Below, one piece after another: positions 27,729 through 64,000 of a stretch of DNA of 64,000 bases. This DNA comes from Nipponacmea schrenckii (Eukaryota > Mollusca > Gastropoda > Lottiidae). A program made the translations under genes and the position numbers. The stretch is taken from assembly GCA_030562195.1 (NCBI GenBank), contig CM060199.1, positions 9,506,338 to 9,570,337 on the forward strand, given 5' to 3'. Below the pieces are notes generated by a model. It saw nothing but the letters and a program-made list of their open reading frames with translations. It did no database searches and was not told where the DNA came from. Position 1 is the first letter of the stretch, and each line of letters begins with the position of its first letter.

Positions 27729-30700
27729 CTGTAAAGGGAAGACAAGCAATCGTTGATTAGTAACAAGCTTAGATTAGTGGAAGCAGGACTTTGTTTAACG
27801 TGCCCTTCACATGCTCTCACACCATAGTGATTACCAGTAGCATACTACCTCACACCATAGTGATTACCAGTAGCATACTACCTCACACCATAGTGATTAT
27901 CAGTAGCATACTACCTCACACCATAGTGATTATCAGTAGCATACTGGTTGTGGACATTCCCTCACACCATAGTGATTACCAGTAGCATACTGGTTGTGGT
28001 TGTCTACATTTGGAGTTGCAATCAAATGTCATGACTGTTAGTTTTAATTGACACCTTATGCTTCTGATGATTACTATGCTATGAGGGCTCCTAATGCTAT
28101 ATTTGATAGTTCATTGTTTCAGGTAAACAATGTTCATTAAAATGTGAACTATAATTTTTCTCTGGCAAGGTGATAAATTATGAGGTTTAATCGCAATCAA
28201 GAAAACATCAAGCATGACCTGTTGGAACAATCAAACTGTGCCGTAGGTTCAAGTAGATTTAAAGAAAATAAGTTCAGTTTTAATAAATGCTGCTTTGTTG
28301 TTCTGGAGTTTGGGATGTCTTGAGACAGCTCCTTTGCAGCAAATTAAGTTTCAAGCAACAAGCATTAGTTACATTCTGACTCAAATGGGGTTATCAGAGG
28401 AATTAAATGCAATATCACCCTTGCTAAATATAATATTAGTGGTATGACTGATTTATGATTATGTTAGGCAGAGGTTAGCAAGCTACAAAAGCATCATTGT
28501 TAATAGCATGAACAGAGCTAGAAATTTACAATTCAATTTTGACCTTGTTATTTGCCATACTGTATATACATGTATATCATTAAAACTACACCAATAATTT
28601 AGTTCTATAGCATCAAAACCTATATTAGGTTATAAGAAAATGATAAAAAGACGTAAAAAATATACCTTCTGGTTGATTCTGTCAATCTGTCGATTCTGAG
28701 AACCAATTTCACTACCCATATCAATTGCCATATTACGTAAATTACCAATCATACCACTGACTTCTGTCAAATTATCTTCCATTTCTGTTTCTCTTGCATC
28801 ATTTGTTACTCTACAATAATAGATACAGATTAATAGAGATCTTGTGGGTAGAGGTCATGTGGTTGGAGGTCATTTGGGTAGAGATCATCTCGATTGAGGT
28901 CATGTGGGTGTATGTCTTGTGGATAAGATGTCATGTGGACATATGTCACACGGATAGAGGTCATATGGATAGAGATGTGGTTGTAATTTGTAAATGAAAT
29001 GAAGGTTTTACGTTCTACTCTTCTGGACCTAGATGTGGTTCTAACTTGTAAGAGATGGCTTATAGCCAAGATAAACTAAACTAAAGATGGACTGATGGCT
29101 ACACAGCAGCTGATTAGGTGACCCAATGGGATATTATTGCCTACTTGCAGAAGCTAGCAAGTAAGCATGCAACTCACAGAGCCCCAATGGCTATATCCCT
29201 TACATCATCCACATTCAATTGATTTTTAAATCATCGTTCTGACATCAGATAGTGAGCTTTGTCACTGTGATGTGTCAATATAACCAGGACTATAGATATT
29301 AGTAGAAACATTATCCAGATGGACAATAAGTATGGATTATAATAAAGTTAATAAAAGTCTTGAGGGAGTAATTATTATCTCCTCCCACACAACCTTTATA
29401 TCTATTATAATAATAGTTTATTGTGTATGGTTTCACTAATTACTCCAACTACTTTCTCTATAATACACTAATCAAACAGGCAAACCGTCAATTTATAATA
29501 TTTTAGCATTTTGTTTTCTTTGAATAAGGTTACAGTGTGATTGTACTCTAGATTTTAATTATACGAATATCCAGAATTAAAGTATACATTAATAATAAAT
29601 TTGATAGTATACTACTCCAGAGTTTATTGAAAATGAAAACCTGAAAGATGTTGTTAATGTTTCACACTCAACAAACTTCCATCATTAATGGAGCTGAGCA
29701 CTAAGCCTTAAAGTGCAGATATAATAACAAGTATCACGTTTCAAACTTCAGCAGAGACACACACTGAAAAGGATCAGTAGTCTGAAGACAGCCCATCCAA
29801 ATTTTAGAACCAGAACAATTATTTTTGAGACACTTTTTCGTGTTAAACATCAACAAATCAGACAAATCAAAGTAAATCCCCCAACTCAAAACCTGCTGTG
29901 AGGAAAATTGTATGTACCAAAAACATTTTGAAGTCATAAGATCCATAATATATATTATTTCTGACCTTGTAATGAATCCACTAGACATGACAGCACCATT
30001 ACCACTATCAACTGTTATTCTAGGACCATTAGCATTAACTTGTCCATCTTCGTTGGCTTTCCATGTTTTATTGTAGTCAGAACCTTTCTCAAAATTCTTA
30101 GCTCTGTAAAAATAATGTTAAATATTATAGAATCTTAAGTGTAAAAATACTTACAAATGAATTAAGTCTACTTTGCTTAGGGTTATAGACAGGCTAAAAC
30201 ATTTTGTTAGGACAGAAGCATTCAACACTTAAAAAAAACTTCAACAATGTCTTGTCCACGCTTTGCTGGCACTGGGTAATACAAGGCATGATCCAATAGG
30301 AGTAAGCCAGTGAAATAGCAATCAGTATGACACATGAGCATATTGAGCAGCAAGTTTGTTATTATATTAACAATCATGTATGCAATTCTTCAGTTATTTC
30401 ATGGACCCAGTACCGGTATTTATGACTTATTTTTCATGGTTTACACCATTTAGTTTAGAAACAAAGTGACATCAATGTCACTGTCTGATATGTTTGTCAT
30501 CTTGTCTTTCTGTCTGGCCAGTGTGTGTCAGCTAAAGCTTTTGTGGACCTAGTACAACGAGGTGTATTACATTGTGTCATTTTCAGGCAAATTTCAACAT
30601 GTTTTATGTAGTCTGAAAACCAGACTATTTTCTTGCTAAAACCAGACAATGGCTTAAAGTACTAGTCCATGTCATGCTTATAGAATGCAGGCAAACTTAA

Positions 30701-36700: not shown

Positions 36701-39700
36701 GCACAGATGACAGGTGTGAATTTTCTGCTGATTTAATCTATTAACACTATAATTCAAATTTGTCTAAGACACGTCTTAGGTAACCTTTATGTACCAAGAT
36801 CTGAAAATTCCTTTCAATTTAAGCATTAAAAATTCCTTTTGAATCAGGCTAAGATCTCTTTGATTGATCGATTCATTTGTCTATATCAACAGAATCAATT
36901 TTATAAAAATAGTATATTTATCAGGACACAAGAGCATGTGTGTGGCTGGCAGGGCATTGTGTACATCATTTCACCTGAAGGTAGGCTACTCTGTGACTCA
37001 ACTTTAAACTACTTAAGACAGTCCACAAGACAGTCCACATAACAAAAAATGCCATTTTGGAATTGTTATTGATATCCACAAGACACAATATACCAAGTAA
37101 TCTAGACACCTAATAACAGTATTTTTAATAAAGAGATTGAAATTTTCCTGTCTATAATCGTGATGTAGTGACGTCAATGGAAGTTATAAATAGCCTGAGA
37201 GTGTATTGTCTTTGTGTAATATTATAATCCCACCCACTGAACCTGCCTTGATTAATACTATTATAATCTAAATAGTAGTACTTATCACCTATTTATTAAA
37301 CTTGTTCACAACAAACACACACTTATTCATCATCAAGGCTGATGTTCTAAATTAAATATGACATTCTGTCAATAAATTAACCAAGTACTAACAACCCAAA
37401 TCGAAAATAACATATTGGCAAAACATTAGTAGCAGCTAATGAACTGTTCACATGAAGAAGTAGATCAATAATAAGTGAGTTATTTTTCACAATGAAAAGT
37501 GGTATCAAATGTTTAGAAGAGTAAGCCTACCCTGCCTGGCACCAAACTCTATATATAAAAATCTCTAAAAGATTAATGGTTTGTGATTCTGATGACCAGC
37601 ATGGAGTATATATAATGCGCACCATATAATATATTATGGTCATCCACAATAGAACCTTTTGAACTCCATAATTCTAACATAGTTTTTCTTTTTTTTTCTT
37701 ATCAACTCTGCCTTCATAATCCAATTATAAATTGAAATTGTCAAAAATATTGCTGTGTGAACTCTCAATTATCTTTTTATTGCAATTAAATCATCCCTGC
37801 TTTTAAACAGAGATACCTGCAGCTAAATTATAAATTTCAAATAAAAATATAAGTTGAGTAATTTGGGATATGAGGCCTGACAAAGAATTTGATAGACAGT
37901 TAAAAAAGAATAATAGATAGGAAAACAGCATGAAAACAAAAATATTAATACAACAAACAGATGCCAAACCACAGTAAATGCATAATAAAACCACATAACA
38001 CCAAATGTAAAATAAAATTAGTAAAAGAATATTTGCAAATACAGATGTACGATGTGGCCATAGAAAGTCAGTTTGAAATTCAGTAAAAGTCCTAAGAGCC
38101 CAGATCCTTGCCCATTAACTTTCAGAATGATTTAAGGAAGTTCAGACAAATCTATATTGGAACAGTTGGAAGGGTTGTTCAGCTTGCCATTAGTTTAAGA
38201 CTAAGCTTGTATAAACTTCACTTCGTAGCAAGGAAATGCAGCAATTAGGTTAGATTGTTCTGATGAAAGTAGGGTCAATCATAATCCTTAACTCCATGCC
38301 AAGATGTTTACAGTCTGTCAAGTCCTCTGATTGGCTAAACTCCCTAGTGTACAATCCAACCAAGTCACTCCATTCCATGCTACAAGAAAGGTAGCTATTG
38401 CAGTCAAGGTAAAAGATTAAGTCTGTAATCAGTAGACATTGTCAAGATAAGAAATCTGAGATTCTAAAAGGCTCAAACAATGCTTTTCATTTAACACGAC
38501 CAACTTTAACAGTATAGATTCAGCTTCCCCTATTTTCTACCCATGTTTTAGAAAAGCAGCACACAGCCAAATAATGAATTAATTTTGTAACCTACCCCCT
38601 TGTTCATCCAACATAACAAGAGTTTTGACACCCACATCTTGGCTCTGAAATCATTGCAAATAACAACTGAACAGAAAGCATTACAATACATAACAAAAAT
38701 AATACTAAGGAGAGCAGTGCATATTTCATTTTCTAGATACATTGAAACTAAGTTTCAAAACAGAAAATTAATAATATTCATTTAGCAGCAGAAATAGACT
38801 ACCCTAGAACTGGGGCTGGCATAGATTTGCATCCCTGTTAAATTGCTTAGCCAAAATGACATGTGAGCCCCCTATAACAGTTCAGTGACACCCCTTCATA
38901 ATATTTATTAAACATCATGGTATAATCATGTGCACATCAAAGTAATGAAGTATGCAAAACAACTCCTTTAAAGTAAATTCTAAAATCATTGGACAACATG
39001 TTTATTTCTAAATTGAATATGTTCAAGTATTGGATTTAATGTTTGGTAGAAATAATGACGTTGTTTCGATTATTTAAGACCAAAATCAATAAGAGTGGAG
39101 GGAAAATGTGATATAATTTGACGAAGACATGTCAATTACAATGATTCGAGAAAAACTTGAAACTTGTGAGATGGTTATTAACTGACAAAACATGCATTAT
39201 GTTTATGTTAATGTAGAACACCAGATACTACAAAGAATCAAATACAATACAATATCGCTTTACAACAATTTAATAAAAAATTCAAATTATCAAATATCTG
39301 AATTGAAATTTATCATATCTCATTATTGGATATTTGAAAACAAAACAGGTTTTTATTTTTCGAAAAATCTCAATTTTTGATATTTAAAATATTCCCAAAA
39401 TTTTATGAATTTCAATGAAATTGTTAAAAGCCAACATATACTGAAAATACTGAAATAATAAAAGATGTAATAATCAATAACAAAATTAAGATCTAACATG
39501 CAGGGTTATGATGCAAACACTAATAACATTGAGTTTCAGCTGGTCGTTAAATAGGACCCTTCTTACCTCCTTGTTCATCTAACATAACCAATGTTTTGAT
39601 ACCAGCTTCCTTACTCTACAGTAGGCAATGAGTAGAAAAAATTTGTTAAAGGGCACGTAGAAATGAAAGGGGTCAAGACACCTTAAAAAATAAGGTGTTC

Positions 39701-42700: not shown

Positions 42701-45700
42701 CACACATTACCAGATTAAAAGCAGAATTTGTTGTTAATATATTAAGATTAAATGGGTGCATTCATAAGGTCACTTCACTGGTGAGTCAGCACTTTCAGAA
42801 TATATATAACTGAAACATTGTCTTTGTCAGAGAATTATTCATCTCCACAATGACATTGTTAATGTCAAGCTATTAGAAAATCCTAAATAAATCTTTCAAA
42901 GAATAGTGTAGACTGCTTTCGGTTTCCCTATAATAAGGAACAGATCATTTATTCTTAATTCCAGAAATACCATTCTAATCATTGAATCTGGTTTTTTTTA
43001 ATTGCAGATCAATAACTTGGTAATACATTTCAGTATTTGATTGGTCCAAAAGAAAGACTTTTTGGTAGTTTTGAGAAAATGGAAAACATGCCTCAGAACA
43101 ATTTAAAGTATAATCCTTAAGCAACATTTAGGGGTAAAAAAATCACATTAAAAAAAGAACACAATGTTTCAAAAAAATACATTTTACCAGATGATGAAAA
43201 TTTTAATTGTGTACAATAAAACTTAGGAGTGGTATACCATAAAATTGTGTCCTGTCATGTAATCAAAATATAGAATTAGCCTTAGAATTGTCAGCGTCTT
43301 GTACAACAGTGAAGTCAGAAAATATTCACTATTCTATTGTTTTCTTTTGTCTTATAAGCGACGAATTACCTTATAAATATTTTAATTTCTTTCAGAAATC
43401 ACTCGGCTGGAAGAGGTTTTATGTTGAAGTTTTCAAAACCTGTTTTTCTTTCTTCTCTACAGGAATTGCCATGTTTGTTTAGAAAGAGATGCAGGAACTA
43501 GATTGTGGTTTCGTAATTTTTTACAAACCAAAGGAAAAATATATATATATCGAAATCATTGTCTCTTGAGCATGAGAAGAAACTCTGACATATTTGTACC
43601 AAGTTTCTCCTTAGCAGGTTAACCTAATATTAGGGACTGAGATAATAAATTTCATCATGTAACATGTTTTTTTTTTCCAAAACAGACCAATCTATATGCT
43701 AGCAATGTAGACATATAGGTTTTGCTTCTATATAGGCTATATATAAAAACACCTATGAAACATATGAACAATGAGTACTGGTAAAGGCATTCCCACTATA
43801 TAAAAAAGGTAGTTCTGTTTGGTTAAAAATCTCCATTTGAAAAAATAGTGAGTCACAGCCTGATCTATAATATATTGATAAGAGGCACAATAAGAAAAAC
43901 TTGCTGAGATACTGAAATATCTAAAAACTTTCACTGTTTTGATATTTGGTAAAGGTATGTGGTTTTTACCAACAATGATATGGAAATATGATGATACAAA
44001 TCGAAGTCTATTAGAACAACTAATCTCCTTATTATAATGGTCTGTAAATAGCAAGACTTATATAAACAATATAGTCAGATATTCCCAGACTAACATGCAT
44101 ACTTAATACATTGATTGGCTTACATGGTCGATATGACCCCAGTTTTCTTTAAGCTTTGTGTACTTTTAAGATAGAGGTTGAAAGTGCTCAATTAGTGGTA
44201 CATTTTCATTCAACTGCAATACATTTGTGGATACCAGGTAACATCCTTTAACTAGGTAACCTCTTTACTCAAGGAAAACTAACCCATGTTTAGCCTTAAT
44301 TTTTTTAGTACCTTAAATGGAGGGGACTCAGACTTCAGACATCTGTAGTTCCTGCAATTCAACTAAATCTAAGTGTTTGATGACGTTACTAATCACAAAA
44401 TATGCCCGTATTGCATTAGGCCCTTTGTGATCAGTAACATCATCAATCACTTAGTTTTAATGGAATTACAGTAACCATTAGTAATTTAAAATTAAACTAG
44501 TGTGTCCCTGATATATGAGAAAACTCTTTAAAATATCTTATAAACTAAACTTAGCCTAAGTAGGTGATTTCTTCATTCAAAAGGATTCTCAGAATATCCA
44601 ATGGTCTAAAGAAGGTCGACACGAAACAACAAGAACTTTGCATGCTGTACTTAACCAGCTTTTCAGTCAGAGTTGATATCATTTTATTGTTGTACAGCTA
44701 ACAGTATTAGTGCTGTATCATATAATTCTCTTTCAGACAACAAAATATCTATTGACTTGAGATTTAACCAGGAGAGATCAAAATATGAGCTGGTTTGAAT
44801 GTAAGTTCTAATTATCTACCTGCCTTTAGGGTCATCAATCACTTATTCTCAGCTGGATTTTTTTCTTTTTTAAAATTGGAAATTTTACCATTTTTTTATT
44901 TTATATTTTTTCTATAATATGTTATACGTTTACTTTTGAACATAAAATATAGAACTGGCTTTTAAAAAATACTTGATGTGCTTAAGGAGATATTTACAAA
45001 AGTTTTACTTTTGTTGAATTCAGATTACTAGTAGTTGTCTTTTCAATTTAATACCGGTACTTATTTTTGTTACTATTATTCATCAAACAGTCCCATATTT
45101 ATTCATCCAGGTCAGGCTCAAAATATAAACATGACCAGTCCATTTAATTTTGAGGTAGTCAAGTAGTAATATATACAACAGGAGTTTATTCTGTATAATT
45201 TCTAAAACTATTCATTATACCTGAAAATGAAGTAGACTGTATGAATTAGACCTAATATCACATTCTCAAGATATAAAGACAAGCCGATTACTTTATTCCT
45301 TATATAGATCAAATTGTAATTGAAACCTTGCATGTCAACTGTTCAAGTTATATAATTGGAAACATGGACTGACCTATAATGTATCTCTAATTGCTTATTT
45401 AGTCTCAGAAAGAAGATTTTTCTGATCCATATTGTGCATAGAGATAATGTATCATTGACTGAAGAAACCAGTATAGCGTATCCAATCCTTTATTTCTAAG
45501 AAATTTAAATGCATGACAGAAATAACTTGTGCCTGTATTACTGTGACCATATTACCATATATCCAAAATACTGTCACTACAATCCTGTTTCCTGTGACCT
45601 AAGGAAAGTAGTATGTACCCCCAATTTGTAAATAAAGATAAATTGACAGTCAAAACAGTAATTGACAGTCTGGACTTAGTCTTTAGAATTCTGGTTCAGC

Positions 45701-53398: not shown

Positions 53399-56017
53399 AT
53401 GAGATGCAACCAGGTCAGTCTATGCCTCACCAAACAATTAGCCAAGATGCAAGAAACAGATCTGTCACACATGTCAAATAATGTAAGTAATCCCAAAGTC
53501 AAAACCAGACCTCTACCTAGAAAGTCTTTACAAATTGAACAAGCCCTGGAACAGCAAATGATTTTTGAAACGCAGATGCCATAAGTTGGTGCATGAGAAA
53601 GGTTAATACACATGAAAAGAAAAATTAACAATAGGAAAATAAAAGTTATCAGAATGTTTGTTATAAAATCTGACATAAAGAGCCCAATTGTTAACAATTT
53701 GGAAAAGCAAATTACAATACGTTTTCGCCAAAGTCGAAATAAGCTTACATAATAAGTAGACTTTAGTCTTATTATCAGAAGTATCCTTAATTTACAAATC
53801 TTCTAGGTAAATCTAAATTTCACACGATTCTGCTATTTTAACCAAACTCTTTCATAATTTTGCCAAAACAAAAACTATGCATGATTTTGCTGTCGAACAT
53901 CATGATATCAGAATAAATCAGCAGGCAATGGAATAGACAAGTAATACTATTATACAAGCATTAATATAAGCAGTTTAGTAATCTTGTTTTAGAAAACTAG
54001 TTGGCAATAAATCTACTTCCATCACATTACTAACTATCATTTTCCTATTTTCACCAGCAGAAAACTACCGGAGATAGCATAATAAATAAGGTTAATGAGG
54101 TCTCTTCTCTTTCAAATTTTATCTCTTATCAATGGACTTAAAAGGGAAATTACACTTCGATCAATTCAGACATAAATGTTGCCTGCCGTTCGTTTCCTTT
54201 CTATAGTTTTGAAATAAAAAATCTTCATTAACATGTTGAGTAAATGTGTCTATATCCATGGTTCCAACTTACAGGAACACATATACCAAGTACCAAGGCC
54301 CTTGGGATATTTTTATAAATGGACATTTTATGACAACATATTGTCAAAAGCATTGAAGAGACAAAAGATGAATCAAACAATTTCTCTGCTTACTATATCA
54401 GGTCTTAAAGTCTTAAAAGATTTAAATCTTTACTGTTCACAGGTTTGCAAATATAAAATTCTGGTTTTCCTGTTTTCTATTCATATAGCTTCAAAAACTA
54501 ATGTAAATTAATTCCTTAATCATTTGCCAACACATTTTGTGTATTAAATCTAGCAGTTTAACTCTTTAAGTCAATCTTTCCGAAAACTTCTATTAAGTGA
54601 CCTTATCAATTTAATTAAAAGTTTCACCTATATTCTCGCATATCACTTAATTCCTGAGATCACAGAAACCTTGGAAACTAACTAACTGCCATGAAAACGA
54701 TAATAGAATCGTTGAACAAAAACAGGAATTTTCTTAACACTTGAATGGATATTATGAGAAAAGTCAATTCAAATCTCAGGGTTAGACCATGGAAAGTTAT
54801 AAATAAACCTTTCTATTGACAAACTTGTAGACTTTTATTGATAATTTTATTCAATCTACCAGCAGATATTTCAAAGAAAATGAAACAATTACTATGTATT
54901 GTTAGGTAACATCTTGAGATAAATCTAGACTTTACAGACAGTCTAGACATACAAATCTTTCATAATGCAATAGATGCCACATTTTTCATAGATAACAATT
55001 GATACAATGACATATTTCTACCATGTTAAACTTTAACATATAAACCTAATATTTGGCACCAATATGTAATGAATATAAATGATGGGTATGGATGCCAATT
55101 TCTTCAGAGATAACCATTTTTACATTGTTTCTTCAACATGTTCTTAAAGGAATACTGTGTCTTAAAATGACATAAAATTGTAAAACTTGGCCAATAAGAT
55201 CATATATTCAATCATCAGATGATAAACTTGCTTATTATAAAACATAACATAACAGAATTCTTATATAATCCGATGAATCCAAAAAAACTTGGTAATTATC
55301 CATAATATACAATCAATTGTGGAAAAATGTTTAATAATTTTCTTAAGGATTTTGCAATAATTACTCACTTTTGTTAGTTATCGATATTTTAAGGGATTCT
55401 GTTACTTTATGACACAAGGTAAGTTTACTGATGAATATATACTCATGTTGACCATTCTGCGATGCAGTTTAACTGTAACTATGACATATTTTATACAGTG
55501 TTTTATTTCAACAGGTAAACCTCATCTCGAGTTTCGCGATAATAAATATTCATAATGTCACAAGATTTTCAAGCTGCATGTCAGATTGGTAGAAATTTTC
55601 TATGTGTTTTTAAATAGATCATGGCTCTGGTCAATGAAATAGCTTTGATTCCAAAGGCACACAGTATTGGAATCAGCTAATTGACCTATAAAGGTCGGAG
55701 GCTGATGTTTCCTGGTCAATTAACAACCAACAGACAACTATCTTAATCCACTCTGCAATAACATGTCAGTAGTTTGACCAATGCTGTATAATTTGAAGTG
55801 ACTGTTAATAAAGTTCTGAATTGGGTCAGTATAATGTTATGACATACTGGCCTTTGACATTTCTGATCAAGTCAAATCAGACTGACAAGGTGCTATTTAG
55901 TCTTCATTATGTTGGTAATTAGTCAGGTATTATTCTACTTCAACATTCATTGATCTAAAAGGAATCAGCTAAAAGATGAAGGAAGACATCACAAACGCAG
56001 AAAAAGGGATCCTTATT

Positions 56018-56612
56018 GAGCTACATTGAGAACAGGTAGAGCTACATTGAGAACAAGTAGAGCTACATTTAGAACAAGTAGAGCTACATTGAGAACAAGT
56101 AGAGCTACATTGAGAACAGGTAGAGCTACATTTAGAACAAGTAGAGCTACATTTAGAACAAGTAGAGCTACATTGAGAACTGGTAGAGCTACATTGAGAA
56201 CAGGTAGAGATACATTGAGAACTGGTAGAGCTACATTGAGAACTGGTAGAGCTACAATGAGAACTGGTAGAGCTACAATGAGAACTGGTAGAGCTACATA
56301 GAGAACAGGTAGAGCTACAATGAGAACAGGTAGAGCTACATTGAGACTTGGTAGAGCTACAATGAGAACAAGTAGAGCTACATTGAGAACACGTAGAGCT
56401 ACATTGAGAACAAGTAAAGCTACAATGAGAACAGGTAGAGCTACATTGAGAACAGGTAGAGCTACATTGAGAACTGGTAGAGCTACAATGAGAACAAGTA
56501 GAGCTACATTGAGAACTGGTAGAGCTACAATGAGAACAAGTAGAGCTACATTGAGAACAGGTATAGCTACAGTGAGAACAGGTAGAGCTACAATGAGAAC
56601 AGTTAGAGCTAG
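56018..56612. repeat. 21-bp minisatellite, about 28 copies
   Basis: Unit 'agagctacattgagaacagg' plus 't', 21 bp. Because 21 is a multiple of 3 and the unit lacks stops in several frames, long frames appear on both strands (Ser/Cys-rich on minus, RATLRTG on plus). They lack splice context and any family match, so they are treated as repeat artefacts. Confidence 0.9.
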
Positions 56613-56917
56613 GTATTACATTACAATATTCCACTTCTAATCTTTTCAACAAACAGGAATCAGATCATAAGATAAATAGTTGAGCCCAACCTGCACCAAT
56701 CGGGTTCTATTATATCTATTGTTATTGATCTACAGGACATAATGTTCAATTTGAAGGTATTTGCAGTAATTAGTCACAAAAAAGGAGAACAAGTGTTTCT
56801 TATTTCGCTAGTTCTAATGTTGAATTCAAATAACTAATCACAATCAAAAAATTTTTTTAAGAAAGTTCAACCATAGCTACTTGGATATTTTGCAGCTTAT
56901 TTATTTTTTTAGAAAGA

Positions 56918-63846: not shown

Positions 63847-64000
63847 AGGGGCCCAGGCTTGATTTTTAGGGGTCATTTTGGGCCTTAGTTACATCTAAAC
63901 AGTCCTCAGAAATACTCAAGCTCTAAGAAAATCGCAAAATACCTTGAAATATACCACAAACAAAAAATTTCACTTTTCATTTTTGGTCTCCAGTCAGTCT
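63847..64000. mobile_element. MITE, family B, cut by the window end
   Basis: Begins after TTAA (63843-63846) with AGGGGCCCAGGCTTGATTTT and continues with the same interior as 46961-47449 (cagtcctcagaaatactcaa, aaaatcgcaaaataccttga). The right end is outside the window. Confidence 0.65.

Follow-up and report, generated by a model that had tools for sequence, protein, structure and literature searches.

What would be gained by carrying a single short exon of a SNARE protein twice, and what would change in the protein if one copy were spliced in instead of the other? The question is raised by a minus-strand gene of the limpet Nipponacmea schrenckii located in the window, which here means the whole analysed stretch of 64,000 nucleotides. 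The gene was identified as SNAP-25, a Qbc SNARE, from tblastn and from its spliced translation. The Qb and Qc SNARE motifs, the ionic-layer glutamine and the Cys-rich linker are all present in the limpet protein, and the N-terminal motif of SNAP-25 in the PDB was matched at an E value of 2.6e-29.

Structure of the gene and of the exon 4 pair

Exons were placed on the basis of homology and splice sites, and those given below for the window all lie on the minus strand. Exon 4a (39615-39567; 49 nt, encoding SKEAGIKTLVMLDEQG plus 1 nt) is the canonical SNAP-25-like copy and exon 4b (38644-38596; 49 nt, SQDVGVKTLVMLDEQG plus 1 nt) is the alternative one, with an intron of 922 nt between them (38645..39566). 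Both copies share exon 3 (40994-40953; 42 nt, SLESTRRMLQMCEE) as upstream neighbour and a single exon 5 (31947-31830; 118 nt) as downstream neighbour. These are followed by exon 6 (30103-29966; 138 nt), which covers the linker region, and exon 7 (28810-28666; 145 nt), which encodes the Qc SNARE motif. The two copies start in phase 0, leave 1 nt over and have GT-AG ends, with acceptor ctgtag/AG and donor GAG/gtaaga for 4a and acceptor tttcag/AG and donor GGG/gtaggt for 4b. They are identical at 37 of 49 nucleotides and differ silently at 4 of the last ten codons (4a/4b: ACA/ACT, TTG/CTT, TTA/TTG and GGA/GGG). A chance match as the source of the pair was ruled out by searching all of the window in six frames with 4a as query and BLOSUM scoring; the two copies scored 77 and 65 and the next best segment 19.

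Vertebrate SNAP-25 has a tandem duplicated exon of its own in this same family, the mutually exclusive 5a/5b, and according to PMC2581893 this duplication dates to early bony fish and is not described in Drosophila. The vertebrate pair is however the next exon downstream, beginning after LDEQG, and in the limpet that exon is single (222 against 13 for the runner-up in the window scan), which rules out a vertebrate-style duplication of exon 5 in the window. An earlier, sequence-only reading of this DNA had described two 49-nt exons 922 nt apart with equal phases and good splice ends, silent differences between them and an unduplicated exon at the vertebrate 5a/5b position; the coordinates, splice ends and codons given above agree with it on each point.

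Both copies are found in a close relative. Limpet 4a is identical to the Patella and Lottia gigantea proteins, and the counterpart of 4b in Patella isoform X1, SQEVGVKTLVMLDEQG, is one residue off limpet 4b, so that the expectation that copy b would be kept in a near relative held. Lottia gigantea is represented by one protein record, with 4a only; this record, P0004, differs from the limpet 4a/8b protein at 1 of 204 residues counted from MRTELQ on.

The gene has further alternative exons at both ends. The last coding exon is either 8a (27728-27663; ATSNEVRISEANKRATKILKS and stop), whose peptide is identical in Patella X3, or 8b (26211-26143; ADSLNVRVDGANTRANRIMRKQ and stop), whose peptide is identical in Lottia gigantea P0004. 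The two (SNEVRI type and SLNVRV type, respectively) alter the C-terminal end of the Qc SNARE motif, and ends of both types recur among the listed gastropod and bivalve proteins; P0105 and P0107, for instance, are identical over 173 residues and then have different last-exon types. There are likewise two alternative first coding exons, giving N-termini ending in ...NAALMKGIEDTTNE and ...MRTELQELQMQANLVTDE. Exon B lies at 51101-51009 (MDPEPVSNGIPENPDPENAALMKGIEDTTNE; with a tentative 5' limit), and the canonical exon A (...MRTELQELQMQANLVTDE) is found beyond the end of the window, some 7.3 kb after base 64000, at L001 7294-7398. Another first-exon candidate, ELQELQM... at 44360, was set aside in favour of these two because its frame meets a stop. 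Other gastropod isoforms have N-termini ending in ...NESLEST. With two choices each for first exon, exon 4 and last exon, 2x2x2 isoforms are possible from the limpet gene, and 6 of the 8 combinations are seen among the listed predicted isoforms of Mercenaria and of Pomacea. Two tandem repeats were also observed, one of 33 bp (3.9 copies, 98% matches; 27816-27945) in the intron just upstream of 8a and a degenerate one of 15 bp (9.4 copies; 28833-28974) directly upstream of exon 7. An open reading frame of repeated Cys/Ser/Thr units at 55969-56652 (minus strand) is probably no gene but an array of simple repeats.

Reading frame and choice of copy

The consequences of each exon combination for the protein were evaluated by splicing in silico. 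Inclusion of 4a alone or of 4b alone gave a protein of 216-217 residues with the normal stop, whereas inclusion of both led to a stop after 74 codons and skipping of both to a stop after 61 codons, as had been claimed in the sequence-only reading, by which exactly one copy keeps the frame. The last junction lies 409 and 350 nt downstream of these early stops, respectively. Stops far upstream of the last exon junction are expected, as a general rule, to bring about nonsense-mediated decay.

The exons of the pair are tandem and probably mutually exclusive, judging from their sequence and splice anatomy, and in this they resemble the mutually exclusive tandem exons of the human and Drosophila catalogues, which are of equal length and same phase, homologous, and present one per mRNA. 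As to how one copy might be chosen, the 922-nt intron between 4a and 4b argues against steric exclusion, and the ordinary GT-AG ends argue against incompatibility of splice-site classes. In a 4.2-kb AT-rich stretch of the limpet gene 19 imperfect inverted pairs were counted; the longest, 36 nt at 72%, has arms that flank 4a and, coming from an AT-rich and uncontrolled count, is at most a weak candidate for docking or selector pairing. By default we take it that recognition is regulated, such that splicing factors would pick 4a or 4b, and that wrong mRNAs with both copies or neither would be cleared by nonsense-mediated decay.

Exon 4 copies in other animals

The distribution of the two exon types was investigated by means of three protein searches, each with a b-type exon 4 in the query, from which the best 120 of 2414, 3183 and 1696 matches were used. 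The matches listed comprise 188 distinct proteins, one of which (P0138) has no exon-4 match. The 16-residue exon-4 segment was classed as a when it has both K40 and A42, as b when it has neither and as mixed when it has one. Searches of this design, with b-type queries and the best 120 of each, show presences and not absences.

Among the matches listed, b-type exon 4 was found in eight phylum-level groups, counted in named taxa as Mollusca 18 of 33, Arthropoda 21 of 21, Hemichordata 3 of 3, Echinodermata 5 of 5, Brachiopoda 1 of 1, Cephalochordata 1 of 1, Nemertea 1 of 2 and Cnidaria 1 of 1. No b-type was listed with these b-type queries for Annelida (0/3), Tardigrada (0/2) or Vertebrata (0/13). 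The missing b-type in annelids and tardigrades means little because only the best 120 matches to b-type queries were taken, and for the same reason the missing a-type in echinoderms, amphioxus and sea anemone means little. The two classes occur together in 11 of the 85 named taxa among the matches listed, namely Patella, Pomacea, Littorina, Physella, Mercenaria, Saccostrea, Aphis, Exocentrus, Cotesia congregata, Glandiceps and Saccoglossus, the b call in Cotesia congregata resting on an unusual copy, SEDVGANTLMMLDHQG. Pairs in hemichordates and insects, together with b-type exons in the other phyla, rule out a mollusc-only novelty, and the idea of a local molluscan innovation was accordingly given up.

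Sixteen pairs of isoforms that differ at exon 4, taken from 12 species, were picked by hand and compared over the rest of the protein. Fifteen of these have zero differences outside exon 4 and the sixteenth, from Saccostrea, has another last exon as well; the members of each pair are therefore isoforms from one gene. This bears out the proposal that the exons are tandem, probably mutually exclusive and distinct from 5a/5b. Gastropods, bivalves and acorn worms all have pairs that differ only at exon 4. Strict a/b pairs make up twelve of the 16, from 8 species, and the remaining four are of other types (Mya, Haliotis, Babylonia and Crassostrea). The named isoforms mostly look like automated predictions. 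In the Aphis, Exocentrus and Cotesia models one predicted protein reads through two exon-4 copies, and in the moth Choristoneura through two non-a copies, as expected for tandem exons. A further 29 b-type rows stem from short contigs, none longer than 3,990 bases, each of which encodes 193-220 SNAP-25 residues in one piece. Since limpet introns are kilobase-sized these are hardly genomic, and they were taken as spliced mRNA, the source labels being our assignment.

The scheme is not followed throughout. Pairs in Haliotis (two a-like), Crassostrea, Mya, Babylonia, Cotesia and Choristoneura do not fit it, and exon 4 is of mixed type in scallops and Dreissena. Further exon-4 copies were noted in a wasp (SEDVGANTLMMLDHQG; P0140), a moth (SEDAGGQALHMLSHQG; P0147) and an oyster (GKEAGIRTLVMIDEQG; P0095), besides the two a-like copies of abalone (P0045/P0028). 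This suggests clusters of more than two exon-4 copies, or conversion, in some lineages.

Residues that differ between the copies

Exon 4 corresponds to residues 39-54 of the rat protein, and counting by heptads from Q53 places core layers at 39, 43, 46, 50 and 53. By this count I67 comes out as layer +4, in agreement with PMC10911398. Residues were tallied in 64 rows of type a and 67 of type b drawn from the best-120 lists, with 9 mixed rows left out and 51 matches that were identical over the exon and its flanks merged. As these rows share descent the counts are not independent. The core positions were found to be near-fixed over the 131 listed rows of both types (Q53 in 131, G43 in 130, L50 in 129, T46 in 126 and S39 in 122). 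Variation at the ionic layer as the main point of the pair was rejected on this account, and with it the earlier suggestion that the pair serves chiefly to vary the SNARE helix there, Q53 being present in every a and b row.

The differences are instead located at positions that face outward. Position 40, which defines the classes, is K in a and in b is Q in 49 rows, H in 13, R in 3, S in 1 and E in 1. Position 42, likewise class-defining, is A in a, and in b it is V in 60 rows with others in the rest. At position 47, I or M is found in 25 of 67 b rows and 0 of 64 a rows, and at 48 a residue other than V in 15 of 67 and 0 of 64. Position 52 is acidic in all 64 a rows and in 36 of 67 b rows, leaving it non-acidic in 31 of the latter. 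Variation at position 44 is greater in b. At 45 the b rows have mostly K, and the a rows R or K. Limpet 4b differs from 4a by K40Q, A42V and conservative changes at 41 and 44, with L47, V48, D51 and E52 unchanged; in Mytilus, Pomacea and Saccostrea residue 52 is also changed in b.

Age of the duplication

In order to date the pair, 11 taxa with clear a and b copies were picked: the limpet of the window, six other molluscs, two insects and two hemichordates. The comparisons overlap and concern a segment of 16 residues only. Identity of same-type exons across phyla averaged 12.0 of 16 for arthropods and molluscs, 13.7 for hemichordates and molluscs and 11.8 for arthropods and hemichordates, as compared to 10.1, 10.9 and 10.2 between the a and b copies within species in the same sets. 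Same-type identity exceeded within-species identity in 32 of 32 comparisons (14/14, 14/14 and 4/4, respectively), a result favoured in part by the way the classes were drawn, namely on residues 40 and 42. The comparison was thus repeated over the 14 positions that remain when these two are removed. For hemichordates and molluscs the values were then 12.2 same-type, 10.9 cross-type and 10.9 within species, with same-type above within-species in 12 of 14 comparisons and 2 ties, and for arthropods and hemichordates same-type was above within-species in 4 of 4. For arthropods and molluscs the values became 10.5 same-type, 10.5 cross-type and 10.1 within species; same-type was the higher in 10 of 14 when set against within-species (4 ties) and in 6 of 14 when set against cross-type (2 ties). 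This weakens the age argument because the arthropod-mollusc signal vanishes on average. When the six non-fitting taxa were added, with all positions in use, same-type exceeded within-species identity in 35 of 44 arthropod-mollusc, 18 of 22 hemichordate-mollusc and 8 of 8 arthropod-hemichordate comparisons.

The exon 4 pair is thus probably much older than the molluscs. The hemichordate-mollusc match gives good support to a duplication before protostomes and deuterostomes parted, and the arthropod pair is likely to derive from the same duplication, mainly on residues 40 and 42. It may be argued instead that the exon was duplicated independently several times, once for example in arthropods, and that the b-type residues are convergent. 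The segment is short, the arthropod-mollusc link is gone on average without residues 40 and 42, and gains, losses or conversion do happen, as is seen in the two a-like copies of Haliotis and in oyster GKEAGIRT... and insect SEDVGANT... and SEDAGGQA... copies. The hemichordate-mollusc match nevertheless outlasts the removal of the defining residues, and same-type exons are closer in every comparison of the 11 selected taxa, even if selection on 40 and 42 favours that result; we consider repeated duplication unlikely, albeit worth bearing in mind.

The synaptotagmin interface

Important residues of SNAP-25 at its primary interface with synaptotagmin are K40, D51, E52, E55, Q56 and D166, and the published interface peptide spans residues 37-53 (PMC8967716), which is almost exon 4 (39-54). 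A K40A/D51A/E52A/E55A/D166A quintuple mutant was made to disrupt this interface (PMC9811660). V48 touches Syt1, and V48F desynchronises evoked release, increases spontaneous release and also alters association with partner SNAREs (PMC10911398). In SNAP-23 the differences at or near the interface are K40Q, L47I and V48T (PMC8967716), all three of which also occur among b-type exons, and in mouse neurons in which SNAP-23 replaces SNAP-25 release becomes asynchronous and is triggered by synaptotagmin-7 (PMC4244210). The interface data are for rodent proteins, and SNAP-23 and SNAP-25 differ outside exon 4 as well.

On this basis we hold it fairly probable that exon 4 is an old tandem pair used one copy per mRNA, forming a splice switch that tunes synaptotagmin coupling and not zippering. 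Exon 4 would supply the stretch of the Qb helix that contributes K40, D51 and E52 to the primary interface with synaptotagmin C2B. Both copies would zipper normally, given that the core-layer residues are kept in each, and in 4b K40 would be replaced, by Q or H in most cases, with L47, V48 or E52 replaced as well in many species. In this way 4b may weaken or re-direct binding of synaptotagmin-1, and the outcome would be another calcium-sensor pairing according to cell type, with synchronous release on one side and more asynchronous or non-neuronal secretion on the other. That the exon swap alters synaptotagmin coupling is most probably correct by analogy with the rodent data. In the limpet K40Q is the only named contact altered, so the effect of 4b may be small, and milder than in Mytilus, Pomacea and Saccostrea.

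Other functions of the pair were weighed against the same observations. If it mainly switched SNARE zippering, or the choice of syntaxin or VAMP as partner, at the Qb ionic layer, this would fit the position of exon 4, which by the heptad count holds Q53 and core layers -4 to 0, and also the changed partner-SNARE association of V48F (PMC10911398); the near-invariance of the core positions over 131 a and b rows makes it improbable. The early stops of both wrong combinations, well before the last junction, would also suit a scheme in which 4b is redundant and the splice choice sets the level of SNAP-25 via nonsense-mediated decay, the residue changes being nearly neutral. A poison exon need not however conserve a distinct protein sequence, and the b-type is recognisable in eight phylum-level groups among the matches listed, hence we regard this as highly improbable. 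Limpet 4b was judged from genomic DNA and from the proteins of relatives, which would leave room for a dead or drifting duplicate or an artefact of the assembly; yet its frame and splice sites are intact, its nucleotide identity to 4a is far from near-perfect and its Patella counterpart is only one residue different, and we give such an explanation hardly any credence.

SNAP-25 and SNAP-23 of vertebrates

The reading of 4b as a switch of synaptotagmin coupling invites comparison with vertebrates, in which SNAP-25 and SNAP-23 are two genes, whereas limpet 4a and 4b are two exons. The vertebrate SNAP-25 segment, SKDAGIRTLVMLDEQG, is a-type and is nearer a in 10 of the 11 two-copy taxa, the exception being Mercenaria. 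The SNAP-23 segment, SQDAGIKTITMLDEQK (1nhl_A), shares Q40 and I47 with many b-types, and against both hemichordates it matches b at 13 of 16 residues and a at 10 of 16. Of the 11 taxa, 6 place it nearer b and 3 nearer a, with ties in the other 2, and since it keeps A42 it is mixed by the class rule; to equate SNAP-23 simply with a b-type exon is therefore too strong. The limpet b-isoform scored 65.6 bits against SNAP-23 and the a-isoform 64.0, and against the SNAP-25 chain 6ip1_C the a-isoform scored 103.5 bits and the b-isoform 101.4. These similarities are only suggestive of a link between SNAP-23 and the b-type. It is a tentative possibility that the bilaterian ancestor had a SNAP-25 splice switch, with protostomes and hemichordates keeping the exons and vertebrates turning them into separate genes for SNAP-25 (a-like) and SNAP-23 (b-like).

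Significance

No description of a duplicated SNAP-25 exon 4 was found among the listed titles and abstract beginnings of open-licence PMC articles, a scope outside which lie subscription papers, supplements and genome browsers. In the portion of the PMC5740500 text consulted, 'SNAP25' occurs once, in the reference list; its datasets and those of Hatje and Kollmar 2013 lie outside that scope. The exon 4 pair may be unreported, though the supplements of insect exon catalogues could list it, and exon-4 isoforms are already in databases as predicted X-variants.

SNAP-25 is a central protein of neurotransmitter release, and according to the parts of the literature consulted its synaptotagmin contact has so far been probed with designed or disease mutations (PMC8967716, PMC9811660, PMC10911398). 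Here there appear to be two natural versions of that contact within one gene, in several phyla. If the proposed function is correct, snails and insects would use splicing to change how their release machinery is coupled to its calcium sensor. If the ancestral switch is real as well, the pairing with fast and slow calcium sensors would be an old property, set by splicing first and by paralogues later, and the split of vertebrate SNAP-25 and SNAP-23 would gain a possible origin.
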